From contig NZ_JACYXM010000008.1 in the NCBI RefSeq assembly GCF_014843005.1, positions 62,001-126,000 of the forward strand: DNA of 64,000 nucleotides, written 5' to 3'. Every line of letters starts with the position of its first letter. The first letter of the stretch is position 1. This document shows, one piece after another, positions 38,682 to 45,689 of this stretch. Under the pieces are notes generated by a model. It had not been told where the DNA came from. It did no database searches and saw nothing but the letters and a program-made list of their open reading frames with translations. The position numbers were made by a program, and so were the translations under genes. This DNA is from Rhodanobacter sp. DHG33 (lineage in GTDB: Bacteria > Pseudomonadota > Gammaproteobacteria > Xanthomonadales > Rhodanobacteraceae).

Positions 38682-38783
38682 CCCCTCTCCCGCCTGCGGG
38701 AGAGGGGGCGGGAAAGAGGATCGTTTTCGCTAGAACATGCTCCCTCTCTCCAAGCCTCTCTCCCGCAAACAGGAGAGAGGCTT
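38682..38783 (+). terminator. Two hairpins after gcvP
   Basis: 38682-38707: a CCCCTCTCCCGC/GCGGGAGAGGGG near-palindrome. 38752-38783: a perfect 12-bp stem (AAGCCTCTCTCC with GGAGAGAGGCTT) and 8-nt loop. The CTCTCCCGC core also occurs between pstS and pstC (about 23732-23750), so the first may be a dispersed repeat doing duty as a terminator. Confidence 0.55.
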
Positions 38784-38862
38784 CAAGCAGAAGTCCCACC
38801 ATGTAAGCTGATTCACCAATTCGCATATGAACGATGCGATGACAACCGACGAGGGGACTTGA

Positions 38863-39345
38863 ATGTCAATGGCGTCGATCAAGGTCATCAAAGGCTTCGT
38901 CGCGGATTTCGACAATGGCGGCAAGGATGGTGGCAACGTCACCGGTTTAATGGTGACCACCTTCACGGTCGGCGACCCGCCTGTAAGCTTTTGGTCGCCC
39001 CTCTCGATTGGTTCGCCCATTGCCAGTGGTGATTACGTCGCAGTGGCCGGCCAGCGCTCACTGGTGCACGGGATCGGTCAGGTGGCCTTGGCGTATCGTC
39101 GTCTTGGCAATTCGGGAAGCGCGCATTTGTTCAATGTAGCTTTCCCGATCATGTGCTTTCTATTCGGAGCACTGTGCATCTTCGGCGGCTTGCTTCTCGA
39201 ACCTGGCGGTATCGACATAGCGGCGATGGTGGCGGGAATCGCCCTAGGCTTATTCGGTATTTGGCGACTCTGGTGCATGTGTACAGCACGCAGCATGCTG
39301 AACAACATGGAGTCCGTCCTGTCCACCTATCAACATGGGCAGTGA
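38863..39345 (+). CDS. Unknown membrane protein with two TM helices
   Basis: 160 residues, not recognised. The N-terminal half is soluble and beta-like (IKVIKGFVADFDNGGKDGGNVTG..., SGDYVAVAGQRS). Two TM helices follow at about 92-110 (FPIMCFLFGALCIFGGLLL) and 118-135 (IDIAAMVAGIALGLFGIW), then a short tail with CMCTARSMLNNMES. A GAGGGGACTTGA site precedes the ATG. Base composition is lower in GC than its neighbours, hinting at acquired or fast-evolving DNA. The beta-rich part before a membrane hairpin is reminiscent of NfeD/OB-type membrane proteins, but this is only a resemblance. Confidence 0.65.
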   Translation: MSMASIKVIKGFVADFDNGGKDGGNVTGLMVTTFTVGDPPVSFWSPLSIGSPIASGDYVAVAGQRSLVHGIGQVALAYRRLGNSGSAHLFNVAFPIMCFLFGALCIFGGLLLEPGGIDIAAMVAGIALGLFGIWRLWCMCTARSMLNNMESVLSTYQHGQ

Positions 39346-39425
39346 ATAAATCCTCAGCCTGACAAAGCTCCTTTGAGCGACGCTGAAGTTCGTCTTTGTG
39401 CAAAACAGTACGGCAAACACCGTGC

Positions 39426-41393
39426 TCAGGTTGACGCGGACATTTGCGGTATCGCGCAGTGCAGACTGGCACACACCATGCGCAACAACTCCTTCTCGGT
39501 AGATGTCACGACGCCATCGGCCTTGATCGCGCACTGCAGCCCCTGGATCACGATCTCCTTGGCGACCGGCAGCAGGCGGTCGAGATCGTCCAGCGCTCGG
39601 TCCAGCCGAGCCTGCCACACGATGGGCAGCGTCTGCCAACTGAAGACTTCCCCCGGAAACGCCTGATCCATCGCCGCCAGCCACGCGCGCCGCGCCGAAG
39701 CATCGTCGTTGCTGCCGTATACCGCAACGACCGCGTAAACCAGCGAAAGACTGTCGCGGCACGCCGGCAGCTTTTTCCGGCCTTCAACGGGCGCACTGCC
39801 CGGTTTGGCGGCCTCGCGCAGATACATTCGCAACAGCCGTACCAAGCAATAGTCGTCGAGTTCCACCTGCGGGTCGACGCCAACGATCGCGTCGAGTGTG
39901 TCGCTCAATGTTTCCAGGCGACCACGCGGCAATTGCTTCAACGCGGGGAATGACAAGGCGATAAGCGGCATGCGCTGCACCGCCGACACGGTCATCTCAT
40001 CGGCAATGAGTTTATCCGTGGCAGACAGCACGTCGTCGCCGAATGCATTGGCGACGAATCGCCGTTGGCGCGCCCGCAGATCTTCGTGCTCCGACATGCC
40101 CAGCGCCAGCGCCAGGTTGAGCGCAGTTTCAGGCGTCCGCGCCGCCTCGACCAGGCTCGCCGGCATACTTTGCCGCACCGACCGCGCCTGTTGGAAATTT
40201 TCTTGCGCCGGGGTGGTGGTGACGGGTGAAGAAACTGCAACGGCTGCGACAGCAGGCACGACAGTCATCGCCGCCTCGGTGCTACCCGGCCATTCCAGCG
40301 GCGGTAACTCCCTTTTGTGTGTCTTGGCTTCGTCGCCGGCCGCCGTTGCACTGTCGTTGCCGGTGAGACGCTCGCTCATGGCGTGCTCCAGCGGCAACAA
40401 CTGCTGCTCGCGGAACCAGGGTTCCAGCGTGCGTATGCGCTGCATGAGTGGCGGATGTGTGGCGAACCACGCATTGAACTCGTCCACGTCGCCGAACATC
40501 ATGTGAGCGACTTCGTGGCGGTTCCCTGCCTGCAACAACGATCCGTCGGGAGCAACCGCGATTTTCTTCAACGCGCCAGCAATGCCAGCGGCTTGTCGCG
40601 TGAATTGCACCGCGGATGCGTCTGCCAGTGCTTCGCGTTCGCGCGCCACGGCGGCCTGGATCAAACGCCCGAAGAAATAACCGATCGACCCGATGACGAT
40701 AAAGCCGAGGCCAAAAAAATAGCCCACCACTTTGCGTTCGGCGTCGCGCTCAGAATATTCGTAACCGCCATCGCTGCTCCATGCGAACTGCCGACCGAGC
40801 ACCGACAGGGCCATGATGCCGAACAGCAATCCCATCAGGCGGATGTTCAATCGCATGTCGCCGTTAAGCACGTGACTGAATTCGTGCGCGATCACACCCT
40901 GCAGCTCATCGCGCGTGAGATTATCAAGACACCCTTGTGTGACACAGATCGTTGCATCGGACGCCGAATAGCCGGCCGCAAAAGCATTGATGCCACGCTC
41001 CTGTGGCATCACGTAAATGTCCGGCACGGGCGTGCCGGACGCGATGGCAACCTCTTCGATCACGTTGCGCAATTGTTTGAGCTTGGGATCGTCGACATCG
41101 GGTGGCACGGGAATGCCGTTGACATCCTCGGCTACCACTGAACCGCCGCCGGCGAGACTTCGAATGCGGTAGAACGCAGAACCGAAGATCACCGCCAGAA
41201 CGCCCAACGTGGTGAACGTGATCAGCCTATGCTGGTAAGCCGCGTGATCGGCCACCCTGATCCAGGGATGGCCAAATATCATGAACACCACCGCGTCCAT
41301 GGCCACCACGATGGCAACGACGGCGAGGCCGAACAGCACCACGAGAAGGCGCGTACTGCTGCGCACCTTCGCCTGCCTGGCAAAAAAATCCAC
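39426..41393 (-). CDS. M48 family metallopeptidase with C-terminal TerB-like region
   Basis: 655 residues. Two N-terminal TM helices (about 15-40, 58-72), then the M48 catalytic domain: GINAFAAGYSASDATICVTQG, zinc site VIAHEFSHVLNGDMRLN (HExxH near residue 170), two further TM helices (about 185-205, 225-245), and AREREALADASAVQFTR with the third ligand Glu. This matches HtpX-like membrane proteases up to about residue 310. The remaining 340 residues are extra: a low-complexity linker, then helical segments ending LQCAIKADGVVTSTEKELLRMVC, which looks like a TerB-type acidic metal-binding motif. It follows lemA by 51 nt on the same strand, so lemA-M48 is likely an operon. Confidence 0.88.
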   Translation of the reverse strand: MDFFARQAKVRSSTRLLVVLFGLAVVAIVVAMDAVVFMIFGHPWIRVADHAAYQHRLITFTTLGVLAVIFGSAFYRIRSLAGGGSVVAEDVNGIPVPPDVDDPKLKQLRNVIEEVAIASGTPVPDIYVMPQERGINAFAAGYSASDATICVTQGCLDNLTRDELQGVIAHEFSHVLNGDMRLNIRLMGLLFGIMALSVLGRQFAWSSDGGYEYSERDAERKVVGYFFGLGFIVIGSIGYFFGRLIQAAVAREREALADASAVQFTRQAAGIAGALKKIAVAPDGSLLQAGNRHEVAHMMFGDVDEFNAWFATHPPLMQRIRTLEPWFREQQLLPLEHAMSERLTGNDSATAAGDEAKTHKRELPPLEWPGSTEAAMTVVPAVAAVAVSSPVTTTPAQENFQQARSVRQSMPASLVEAARTPETALNLALALGMSEHEDLRARQRRFVANAFGDDVLSATDKLIADEMTVSAVQRMPLIALSFPALKQLPRGRLETLSDTLDAIVGVDPQVELDDYCLVRLLRMYLREAAKPGSAPVEGRKKLPACRDSLSLVYAVVAVYGSNDDASARRAWLAAMDQAFPGEVFSWQTLPIVWQARLDRALDDLDRLLPVAKEIVIQGLQCAIKADGVVTSTEKELLRMVCASLHCAIPQMSAST

Positions 41394-41444
41394 GGTATCG
41401 TCCCCCAGCGAGCCGACGCGACCCGACGTTTCCGGCCTAGCCGA

Positions 41445-42032
41445 TTAACCGAAGGAAACCTTGGGTGCCTCGCGCATCGTCTTGTCTTCGATATCCAGCG
41501 GACGCGCCTCGCTAAAGCCGAAACTGCCGGCGATGAAGGAGCCCGGAAAGACCTCGCAGCGATTGTTATAGGTCATCACCGAATCGTTATAGGCCTGACG
41601 CGCAAACGCCACGCGGTTTTCGGTGGAGGTGAGCTCTTCGGTGAGCTGACCGATGGTCTCGTTGGCCTTGAGGTCCGGGTAGGACTCGCTTACCGCGAAC
41701 AGACGCCCCAAGCTCTGCGTCAAACCGTCTTCGGATTCGGACAATTGCTGCATGGCCTGCGGATCACCTGGATTTCGCTTGGCGAGAGCCAAGCCGCTGA
41801 CCGCCGCATTGCGCGCCTGAATCACGGCTTCGAGCGTGCCGTGTTCGTGCGCGAGATAAGCCTTGGCGGTTTCCACGAGATTGGGGATCAGATCGTGGCG
41901 ACGCGTGAGTTGCACGTCGATTTGTGCGAACGCGTTCTTGTAGCTGTTACGCGCGGTCACGAGGCCGTTGTAAAGACCGACCACGTAAAAAACGACCAGC
42001 AGCATGATGGCCAGAAAAACGATCAACCCCAT
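41445..42032 (-). CDS. lemA: LemA family protein
   Basis: 195 residues from the ATG at 42032. A single N-terminal TM (GLIVFLAIMLLVVFYVVGLYN), then LemA helices with VTARNSYKNAFAQIDVQLTRRHDLIPNLV, AYNDSVMTYNNRCEVFPGSFIAG and F-x-EARP (SFGFSEARP). The short N-tail is probably outside with the helical domain in the cytoplasm or periplasm; topology is not settled. Often found beside M48 peptidases, as here. Molecular role unknown. Confidence 0.93.
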   Translation of the reverse strand: MGLIVFLAIMLLVVFYVVGLYNGLVTARNSYKNAFAQIDVQLTRRHDLIPNLVETAKAYLAHEHGTLEAVIQARNAAVSGLALAKRNPGDPQAMQQLSESEDGLTQSLGRLFAVSESYPDLKANETIGQLTEELTSTENRVAFARQAYNDSVMTYNNRCEVFPGSFIAGSFGFSEARPLDIEDKTMREAPKVSFG

Positions 42033-42240
42033 GACGCGCCCCCTAGGTAGGCTCCCCAAAGCCTTTCCAGAGGAGCATACCATGCCACTCCTTGCCATCA
42101 TTTTTGCTCCGTGGAATTGAATCTACGGCAACACGCCTCACGTATCAGAGGTGCGCAAGCCCATCGGGCCGTGCGGCATGTCGCGTGCCAGAATGCAGAT
42201 CCTGGCGCCATCCGTTTCCCCAGGATCGAGAGGTATCGCC

Positions 42241-44385
42241 TTGAACGCTTCCACGCTCGCCGAACCTGTCCTCCGCGCCACCACCCTGCCCCTGCCGCGC
42301 ACGCCAGACCTGCACGAGAGCGATCCGCAGCGCATGCGCCAGGCGTTGCGCGAATACTTCACCAGTACCTTCGACCGCTACGAGTCGCTGTTCAAGACGC
42401 TCGCCGTCGACGCGGCCTGGTACGAACCGCCGATCACGCTGCGCCACCCGCTGATCTTCTACTACGGCCACACCGCGACGTTCTTCGTCAACAAGCTGCT
42501 GCTGACGCGGATGATCGAGGAACGCATCGACCCGCACCTCGAGTCGGTGTTCGCGGTGGGCGTGGACGAGATGGGCTGGGACGATCTCAACGACGCGCAC
42601 TACGACTGGCCAAGCGTGGCCGAAGTGCAGGCCTATCGCGACAAGGTGCGCGCCCTGGTCATCCGCCTGATCGATGAGGCGCCGCTGGAACTCCCGCTCG
42701 GCTGGGACAACCCGTGGTGGGCCATCGTCATGGGCATCGAGCACGAGCACATCCACCTGGAAACCTCCTCGGTGCTGATCCGTCAGCACAAGCTCTCGTA
42801 TGTGAAACCGCACCCTGCATGGCAGCCCTGCGCGCAAAGCGGCGAGGCACCGGAAAACACGCTGGTGAAGGTACCGGCCGGCAGCGTGGCGCTGGGCCGC
42901 GGCATCGGCAGCGCCGTCTATGGCTGGGACAACGAGTACGGCCACCACGAGGCCGAGGTACCGGCCTTCGAAGCCAGCCGCTACCTGGTCAGCAACCGGG
43001 AGTTCGTGGCCTTCGTCGAAGCCGGCGGCTATGCGCAATCCGGATACTGGGAAGAGGAAGGCAACAACTGGCGTGAATTCGCCAAAGCCACCCACCCTAC
43101 CTTCTGGCGTCGTTCGGCCGATGGCTGGCAGCTGCGTCTGATGACCGGCGAAATGCCGATGCCGTGGGACTGGCCGGTGGAGGTGAACTACCACGAGGCC
43201 AAGGCGTTTTGCCGCTGGAAATCCGCCCACGGCGGCCAGCCGGTGCGCCTGCCCACCGAGGACGAGTGGTATCGCCTGTACGCCGAAAGCCGGCGCGGCG
43301 CGCCGGACGGCGAAACGCCGGACGCCAACCTCAACCTGACGCACTGGGCCTCGTCGTGCCCGGTGAACCGCTTCGCGCAGGGCGAATTCTTCGACGTCGC
43401 CGGCAATGCATGGCAGTGGACGGAAACCCCGATCTATCCGTTCGAAGGGTTCCAGGTGCATCCGATCTACGACGACTTCACCACGCCCACCTTCGACGGC
43501 CGCCACAATCTGATGAAGGGCGGCTCGTGGATCGCCACCGGCAACGAGGCCGAGGCCGCTTCGCGCTATGCCTTCCGCCGCCATTTCTTCCAGCATGCGG
43601 GTTTCCGCTACGTGGTGTCCAAAAACATGAAACCTGCGCCTGCCTCGCACTACGAAACCGACAAACTGCTCAGCGAATACGCCGAGTTCCATTACGGCGA
43701 CAGCTACTTCGGCGTGCCGAATTTCTCGAAGGCACTCGCCGACCTGGCAGTGGACGCGCTAGCCGGCTCGCCGAAGCGCAAAGCACTCGATCTCGGCTGC
43801 GCCTCCGGCCGCGCCAGCTTCGAGCTGGCACGTCACTTCGATCACGTCACCGGCGTGGATTTCTCCGCACGCTTCATCGGCCAGGGCGTGGCGCTGGCGC
43901 GCGGCGACAGCCTGCGCTATCTGCTACAGGACGAAGGCGAACTGGTCGAGTACAAGTCGCGCAACCTCGCCGAGCTGGGCTTGACGGATACCGCTGCCAG
44001 GGTGGAGTTCTTCCAAGGCGACGCCTGCAATCTCAAGCCGCAATTCGCCGGCTACGATTTCATCCTCGCCGCCAACCTGATCGACCGGCTGTACAACCCG
44101 GCGCAATTCCTCGAAGCCATCCACGAACGGCTGAACCCCGGCGGCCTGCTGATGATCGCCTCGCCTTACACCTGGCTGGTGGAACACACGCCGCGCGCGG
44201 ACTGGCTGGGCGGGTTCAAGAAAGACGGCGAGAGTTTCACCACGCTGGATGGCCTCGACGCCATCCTCGGCGTGCATTTCGAGCGTGTGGGCGAACCCTG
44301 CGCAGTGCCGTTCGTGATACGCGAGACGCGGCGCAAGTTCCAGCACACCCTGTCGGAGGTGACGCTGTGGCGGCGGCGCGCGTGA
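42241..44385 (+). CDS. ovoA: OvoA: 5-histidylcysteine sulfoxide synthase fused to 4-mercaptohistidine N1-methyltransferase
   Basis: 714 residues from the TTG at 42241 (GAGAGG 7 nt upstream); the frame is open to a GTG at 42151 but that leader is not family-like. It makes the C-S bond between histidine and cysteine using Fe(II) and O2, and its last domain methylates the imidazole. DinB-like domain with the three-His iron site: H77 (YYGHTAT), H168 and H172 (GIEHEHIHLETS). Formylglycine-generating-enzyme-type domain from about 207 (VKVPAGSVALGRG; GNAWQWTE; FRYVVSKN). SAM methyltransferase from about 475, with ALDLGCASGRASFELAR (514-530) and GVDFSARFIG. The three-domain order separates OvoA from EgtB. 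A PLP lyase gene follows 43 nt downstream. Confidence 0.93.
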   Translation: MNASTLAEPVLRATTLPLPRTPDLHESDPQRMRQALREYFTSTFDRYESLFKTLAVDAAWYEPPITLRHPLIFYYGHTATFFVNKLLLTRMIEERIDPHLESVFAVGVDEMGWDDLNDAHYDWPSVAEVQAYRDKVRALVIRLIDEAPLELPLGWDNPWWAIVMGIEHEHIHLETSSVLIRQHKLSYVKPHPAWQPCAQSGEAPENTLVKVPAGSVALGRGIGSAVYGWDNEYGHHEAEVPAFEASRYLVSNREFVAFVEAGGYAQSGYWEEEGNNWREFAKATHPTFWRRSADGWQLRLMTGEMPMPWDWPVEVNYHEAKAFCRWKSAHGGQPVRLPTEDEWYRLYAESRRGAPDGETPDANLNLTHWASSCPVNRFAQGEFFDVAGNAWQWTETPIYPFEGFQVHPIYDDFTTPTFDGRHNLMKGGSWIATGNEAEAASRYAFRRHFFQHAGFRYVVSKNMKPAPASHYETDKLLSEYAEFHYGDSYFGVPNFSKALADLAVDALAGSPKRKALDLGCASGRASFELARHFDHVTGVDFSARFIGQGVALARGDSLRYLLQDEGELVEYKSRNLAELGLTDTAARVEFFQGDACNLKPQFAGYDFILAANLIDRLYNPAQFLEAIHERLNPGGLLMIASPYTWLVEHTPRADWLGGFKKDGESFTTLDGLDAILGVHFERVGEPCAVPFVIRETRRKFQHTLSEVTLWRRRA

Positions 44386-44428
44386 ACCGTTTCCCCGCCT
44401 GCTGCGCATCGCGGGGAACAGCCAGGCC

Positions 44429-45634
44429 ATGACGCCGGATTTCGACCAGTCCATCGACCGCGCCGGCAGCCATGCGCTGAAGTTCGATGGACGCCGGCAG
44501 AAATTCGGCAGCGGCGATGTGCTTCCGCTGTGGGTCGCCGACATGGATTTCGCCGTGCCAACCTGCGTGAGCGATGCCGTGCTCGCGCGGGCCCGGCATC
44601 CGATCTACGGTTACACGCAATATCCGGAAAGCCTGTACCAGTCGCTGATCGCCTGGTGCGATCGCCGCCACCGCTGGCAGGTCGAGCGCGAATGGCTGGT
44701 GCCTGCTTCCGGCGTGCTGGCGTCGATGTCCGCGGCGATACAGTCCTGCACCGCCATGGGGGATCCCATCGTCGTGCAGTCGCCGGTATATCCCGGTTTC
44801 TTCCGCGCCGTGGAGGACTGCGGCCGCCGGCTGCTCCACAACCCCTTGCGCGAGACCGATGGGCGTTACGCCATGGATCTCGCCCAGCTGGAGCAATACG
44901 CACGCGACGGTGCACGTGCCCTGCTGCTGTGCAATCCGCACAACCCGGTCGGCCGGGCATGGACGCCGGGCGAACTCGAAGAAGTGCTGGGCATCGCGCG
45001 CCGCCACGGCCTCACCGTCATCTCGGACGAAGTGCACGGCGACCTTGCGCTGCCCGGCGCCAGCCATCACCCGCTGCTTGGCCTGGCACGTGCGGGCGAC
45101 CGCGTCATCGCCGTGCTCTCGCCCGGCAAGACCTTCAACCTGCAGGGCCTGGGACTGACCCTCATAGCGGCCCCGCGCGCCGACCAGCGCGATGCGCTGC
45201 GGAATGCGATCGCGGCTTCGCACCTTGGCGACGCCAATCCTTTCGCCGTCGCCGCCGGCGAAGCCGCGTGGCGCGACGGCGACCAGTGGCTCGATGCCTT
45301 GCGCACTTACCTCGCCGGCACGCGCGACTTCGTCGCCGACCGCCTGCGCACGCACATCCCCGCGATCCGCCTGGTGCCGTCCGAAGCCGGCTACCTGCTG
45401 TGGCTGGATTGCCGCGCGCTGGGCATGGACGACGTGGCACTGCGCGAATTCTTCATCCATCGCTGCAGGCTGGGCCTGAATCCCGGCGTCGACTTCGGCC
45501 CTGGCGGCAGCGGCTTCATGCGCATGAATATCGGCACGCCGCGGCGCAATATCGAGGCGGCGCTGGCAGCTATCGAGAGGGCACAGAGCCAAACATACGC
45601 GCCCCCGAATGTACGGGATATCCCGTCCCGATAA
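44429..45634 (+). CDS. ovoB: PLP-dependent C-S lyase, MalY/PatB family; probable OvoB
   Basis: 401 residues, aminotransferase fold type I. It begins with the MalY/PatB pattern (LPLWVADMDFAVP), then GYTQYPESLYQSLIAWCDRRH, LCNPHNPVGRAW, ISDEVHGDL (Asp 200 to the PLP ring) and LSPGKTFNLQGLGL with PLP lysine K234. Such enzymes cleave C-S bonds beside an amino-acid carbon. In ovothiol synthesis OvoB is exactly such a lyase, cutting the histidyl-cysteine sulfoxide to 4-thiohistidine. Position 43 nt after ovoA makes that role likely. A general cystathionine/cysteine-sulfoxide lyase is the alternative. A strong terminator follows. Confidence 0.82.
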   Translation: MTPDFDQSIDRAGSHALKFDGRRQKFGSGDVLPLWVADMDFAVPTCVSDAVLARARHPIYGYTQYPESLYQSLIAWCDRRHRWQVEREWLVPASGVLASMSAAIQSCTAMGDPIVVQSPVYPGFFRAVEDCGRRLLHNPLRETDGRYAMDLAQLEQYARDGARALLLCNPHNPVGRAWTPGELEEVLGIARRHGLTVISDEVHGDLALPGASHHPLLGLARAGDRVIAVLSPGKTFNLQGLGLTLIAAPRADQRDALRNAIAASHLGDANPFAVAAGEAAWRDGDQWLDALRTYLAGTRDFVADRLRTHIPAIRLVPSEAGYLLWLDCRALGMDDVALREFFIHRCRLGLNPGVDFGPGGSGFMRMNIGTPRRNIEAALAAIERAQSQTYAPPNVRDIPSR

Positions 45635-45659: not shown

Positions 45660-45689
45660 AAACAAGGCCCCGCATGCGGGGCCTTGTTT
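45660..45689. terminator. Bidirectional terminator between ovoB and the M1 peptidase
   Basis: A 30-nt perfect palindrome: AAACAAGGCCCCGC, ATGC-centred, GGGGCCTTGTTT. A-tract on one side and T-tract on the other suit termination in both directions. It has the same GC core as the palindrome at 55720. Confidence 0.85.

Follow-up and report, generated by a model that had tools for sequence, protein, structure and literature searches.

A probable two-gene ovothiol A operon in Rhodanobacter and its relation to ergothioneine genes in the Rhodanobacteraceae

Rhodanobacter sp. DHG33, a member of the Lysobacterales and Rhodanobacteraceae with a genome of 3.76 Mb, carries two neighbouring open reading frames at 42241-44385 and 44429-45634 that, presumably transcribed together, very probably constitute a two-gene operon for ovothiol A. 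Positions are those of the window, which is the whole stretch of 64,000 nucleotides that was analysed. The three steps of ovothiol synthesis are described in the available text of PMC12631010, and the reactions proposed here are deduced from characterised homologues. The iron centre of OvoA would link the sulfur of cysteine to histidine C5, giving a sulfoxide, the downstream PatB-type PLP lyase (OvoB) would release pyruvate and ammonia and leave 5-thiohistidine, and the C-terminal domain of OvoA would methylate a ring nitrogen with SAM to yield ovothiol A. In the genome of the window, ovothiol would replace ergothioneine. The features of the locus are as follows.

42228-42233, plus strand: likely ribosome-binding site GAGAGG, kept at the same place in six of eight other Rhodanobacter genomes
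42241-44385, plus strand: ovoA, 714 aa, TTG start, predicted sulfoxide synthase and N-methyltransferase
42358-42765, plus strand: DinB_2 domain (aa 40-175; Pfam), which holds the three iron-site histidines H77, H168, H172
42856-43614, plus strand: FGE-sulfatase domain (aa 206-458; Pfam)
43651-44376, plus strand: C-terminal methyltransferase ovoA_Cterm (aa 471-712; NCBIfam; solved relatives OvoM 9bxl and OvsM 9bxh)
44429-45634, plus strand: candidate ovoB, a 401 aa PatB-family PLP C-S lyase (NCBIfam, fold match, tree position)
45128-45130, plus strand: codon of the PLP lysine K234, invariant in 31 lyases including that of the window
45660-45689, no strand assigned: hairpin (13-bp stem, 4-nt loop), a likely terminator between ovoB and a convergent peptidase M1 gene

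By sequence, the first gene is a full OvoA, and its catalysis at histidine C5 with cysteine is predicted by homology. The protein exceeds the NCBIfam cut-offs of the equivalog model ovoA_Nterm (TIGR04344, 684.5 bits vs 400) and of ovoA_Cterm (TIGR04345, 4-mercaptohistidine N1-methyltransferase, 345.7 bits vs 170), and its DinB_2, FGE-sulfatase and methyltransferase domains all exceed the Pfam cut-offs. The top match among solved structures is OvoA 8khq (5-histidylcysteine sulfoxide synthase / 4-mercaptohistidine N1-methyltransferase), which comes from another organism and aligns with 916 bits over aa 24-712, a match that covers the three domains and the His residues. The methyltransferase part also resembles the solved OvoM (260 bits) and OvsM (243 bits). 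Furthermore, H77, H168 and H172 do not vary among 20 OvoA sequences, including that of the window, drawn from Rhodanobacter, genus g25 of the same family and family f9 of the same order, and a DLGCAxGR-like stretch of the C-terminal domain, which we take to be the SAM motif, is mostly invariant in the same set. The start codon at this place is TTG in five and ATG in one (L047) of eight other Rhodanobacter genomes, all six with GAGAGG 7-8 nt ahead of it, and the remaining two (L040, L041) have a start stretch unlike that of the window.

The lyase gene follows after 43 nt (44386-44428). Its product scores 480.6 bits with the PatB model TIGR04350 (NCBIfam cut-off 340) and is the sole protein above this cut-off in its own genome. 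The AlphaFold model (mean pLDDT 93.6) superimposes on 5z0q, 'Crystal Structure of OvoB', with TM 0.88/0.93; the two share the PatB/MalY family and fold, yet their identity is just 38%. Erwinia tasmaniensis is the source of the crystallised OvoB, according to the accessible part of PMC9103826. Since the lyase is equally near to B. subtilis PatB (6qp3, 38-39% identity; E. coli MalY, 31%), likeness alone cannot separate OvoB from other PatBs. The window lyase fits OvoB in family and predicted fold, cleavage of the sulfoxide is its predicted activity, and it is the adjacency to ovoA and the tree position, not identity, that tie it to ovoA. A sequence-only reading of this DNA had already placed both genes and the 43-nt gap where they are found here, and had named the three-His site, the FGE-type and SAM methyltransferase domains, K234 and the ovoB identity of the lyase, all of which agree with the present results. 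Its 'strong terminator' is borne out in part: the hairpin at 45660-45689 is present (z -3.95 vs 200 shuffles), whereas the T tail left after it is poor and the support comes from the hairpin alone. A consensus terminator scan gave no entry for it, probably because the stem absorbs the T run.

The gene pair is conserved within the genus. ovoA is present in 12 of 15 Rhodanobacter genomes, three of the 12 were left out of the locus reading, and ovoA and the lyase adjoin in all eight other genomes read, with gaps of 12-368 nt between aligned ends. Among 147 genomes sampled from the Rhodanobacteraceae, ovoA lies above the cut-off in 16 (Rhodanobacter 9/11, genus g25 7/10) and PatB is found at E 1e-70 in 13, with both genes together in nine, all of them Rhodanobacter. 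The only sampled members of Rhodanobacter that lack ovoA (G041, G117) lack PatB as well at E 1e-70. The same threshold gave no PatB in any of the seven g25 genomes with ovoA (L048-L054), so the lyase is not in every case a PatB, and a MAG titled Rhodanobacter (L121; OvoA 71% identical) has no adjoining PatB in the 1415 nt downstream.

Among 80 named ovoA loci, the lyase lies directly downstream in 41, ten of them with touching aligned ends, and 35 loci with at least 1400 nt downstream have no adjoining PatB; as four were too short downstream to judge, the count is 41 of 76. Across 276 genomes sampled from the class, ovoA is present in 14, PatB (E 1e-95) in 40 and both in ten vs 2.0 expected (p 9e-7, kinship uncorrected), and in nine of these ten the two genes are adjacent on the same strand. 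The same gene order is annotated in Sulfurovum mangrovi (L199) of the Campylobacterota, where ovoA (OvoA 53% identical to that of the window) is followed after 1 nt by a PatB family C-S lyase. In Rahnella and Ewingella, ovoA resides on large plasmids (L198, L200), with no adjoining lyase listed. Both carry an annotated site-specific integrase within about 3 kb of ovoA.

The position of the lyase was examined in a PatB tree of 83 rows ('quick' search type), 58 of which adjoin ovoA, and for which the loci of 30 of the 40 class PatBs were used and ten left out. The ovoA-adjacency label changes four times on the tree vs 21.8 in shuffles; most ovoA-adjacent rows had been chosen via OvoA likeness, so kinship adds to this clustering. 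One starred group of 52 rows contains the window lyase and 51 ovoA-adjacent members, and seven of the 58 ovoA-adjacent lyases fall outside it (L199, L201, L205, L206, L208, L215, L216). The four PatBs from Rhodanobacteraceae genomes without ovoA (L111-L114) also lie outside this main ovoA-linked group, and one lyase inside it belongs to a genome without ovoA over the cut-off (G434). Read from its translation, a gene resembling cysteine synthase is divergent from the G434 lyase gene (L230 5873-7171).

Three other accounts of the locus can be weighed against these data. That the first gene encodes a synthase of the ergothioneine or selenium type (EgtB, EgtB-IV, SenA, OvsA), with a product other than ovothiol, is scarcely credible. 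It does match the EgtB and SenA models and the EgtB-IV, EgtB, SenA and OvsA chains, but EgtB reaches 178.7 bits under a cut-off of 360, SenA 180.4 bits under 420 and the solved EgtB-IV 8vig 337 bits, and all four are hundreds of bits under OvoA, and these identities were rejected on the scores. The EgtB and EgtB-IV ergothioneine synthases match the N-terminal two thirds of the protein, stopping at aa 460 or earlier, and do not reach the methyltransferase domain, the presence of which itself speaks against this account. In addition, neither egtB nor egtD was detected in the genome of the window at the thresholds used (E 1e-60 and E 1e-30). The sequence-only reading would have been refuted by a closer likeness to EgtB or another sulfoxide synthase, but OvoA models and the solved OvoA lead by hundreds of bits. 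It is also quite improbable, though less so than a wrong synthase, that the pathway halts at 5-thiohistidine or yields another derivative through an inactive or outcompeted methyltransferase domain. Bacteroidota are known to have a 5-thiohistidine N-acetyltransferase, as the available text of PMC12631010 reports, but the methyltransferase domain of the window OvoA lies above its own cut-off and keeps the mostly invariant motif, and no acetyltransferase was seen among the five neighbouring proteins scanned.

The remaining account, in which OvoA is real but its neighbour is a general PatB/MalY cystathionine beta-lyase and any broad C-S lyase cuts the sulfoxide, is unlikely, yet the most probable of the three. 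It draws on the identical distance of the lyase to solved OvoB and B. subtilis PatB, on the 35 of 76 named loci that lack an adjoining PatB, and on the fact that OvoB itself is termed a broad-specificity lyase in the accessible portion of PMC12631010. Against it stand the window lyase being the only protein of its genome above the PatB cut-off, its staying beside ovoA and being absent together with ovoA in G041 and G117, and its clustering with ovoA-adjacent lyases while the four PatBs of ovoA-less family genomes lie elsewhere.

A different PLP enzyme may serve as a replacement for, or a second kind of, OvoB in family f9 of the same order. In a search of the order, 29 genomes of this family proved to have ovoA, and none of the 20 loci read has an adjoining PatB (one, L086, has less than 400 nt downstream). 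In 15 of the 20, another PLP enzyme is found downstream of ovoA, within about 30 nt in 12; the 15 loci include L083, L085, L087-L089, L093 and L096-L102. The 15 enzymes are 33-65% identical to that of L099 (L099 itself aside), and a match to the window lyase at E 1e-10 was obtained for only six of them (21-27% identity). The L099 enzyme, the sole one scanned, has GntC as its best model (221 vs a cut-off of 415) and is under every NCBIfam cut-off among the matches listed (25 of 75 families).

Upstream of ovoA, at approximately 38780-42110, the window alone carries a 160-aa ORF, an M48/HtpX-like peptidase and a LemA protein between gcvP and ovoA. Comparison with 11 loci gave no match at E 1e-3 for any of the three; of these loci, L118 and L119 repeat L045 and L044 and L121 is the further record titled Rhodanobacter. 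An ovothiol link of these genes was rejected on this ground. Of the six relatives in which gcvP was seen, five have a gcvP-ovoA interval of 233-518 nt, and in L045 it measures about 1580 nt. The parts of the block have a G+C of 0.56-0.61 vs 0.668 for the window. The LemA/M48 block is likely an insertion. LemA has been seen beside ovoA before and judged unrelated, according to the available text of PMC12631010.

The two Rhodanobacteraceae genera with ovoA differ in the placement of their OvoA. In an OvoA tree of 109 rows (FastTree), g25 sequences fall into a starred group (99) together with rows of the Azonexaceae and Rhodocyclaceae. Rhodanobacter is outside this group and lies close to rows of the Moraxellaceae and Cellvibrionaceae, at lower support (89 and 93), and f9 sequences occupy a third place. 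This placement speaks for a separate acquisition of ovoA in Rhodanobacter and g25.

The distribution of ovoA in the family runs against that of the ergothioneine genes. egtB (E 1e-60) was found in 95 of the 147 genomes, 93 of them above the cut-off, and egtD (E 1e-30) in 94, and neither was detected in any of the 16 ovoA genomes, three of the seven from g25 being less than 90% complete. ovoA and egtB thus occur together in 0 of 147 genomes vs 10.3 expected (Fisher p 1e-8, kinship uncorrected). Two Rhodanobacter genomes (G041, G117) and one of g25 (G056) without ovoA have both egtB and egtD. As ovoA and egtB are both missing in 36 of the 147 genomes, a lack of egt is not peculiar to ovoA genomes. 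A wider, hand-chosen set of 80 genomes was made up of 51 with ovoA (38 out of the 80 named ones and 13 from the class sample) and 29 class genomes without it; many of the named ones are MAGs, in which genes can be missed. Here egtB is above the cut-off in 4 of 51 ovoA genomes vs 11 of 29 without ovoA (p 0.002), and at E 1e-60 in 6 of 51 vs 12 of 29; L118 and L121, both titled Rhodanobacter and within the 51, are without egtB. The presence of egtB in some ovoA genomes makes the avoidance, which is weaker in this wider set than in the family, a tendency and not a rule. The sequence read on either side of the egt loci in G117, G041 and G056 gave no match to gcvP or pepN, so a same-site swap of ovoAB and egt was not seen. 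The family pattern suggests that ergothioneine has been exchanged for ovothiol. A broader proposal, put forward tentatively and with slightly less than an even chance of being right, is that in the Rhodanobacteraceae the two thiols fill one cellular slot and are exchanged rather than held together, ovoA having entered at least two genera independently, from separate branches of the OvoA tree, and accompanying the absence of egtB and egtD.

OvoA, OvoB and their occurrence in Proteobacteria are already known, and the Rhodanobacter pair adds another case. According to the accessible part of PMC9103826, which presents the E. tasmaniensis OvoB with its structure and refers to a survey of OvoA/OvoB in bacteria, both enzymes occur widely across aerobic Proteobacteria. 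ovoA is already annotated by name in records from other bacteria, in one case followed by a PatB-family lyase. The sequence-only reading had stressed the interest of a bacterial producer; the gene pair stands, and its novelty is below that implied. No open-licence paper was found linking ovothiol with Rhodanobacter or with PatB, nor, by title, on mutual exclusion or co-occurrence of ovothiol and ergothioneine; as far as these open-licence searches show, the exclusion of egt genes among Rhodanobacteraceae ovoA genomes is the new part. The processes behind the usefulness of ovothiol are poorly known, as noted in the available text of PMC12631010. Since close Rhodanobacter relatives carry either ovoAB or egtB and egtD, a direct test of a thiohistidine swap would be possible within one genus.
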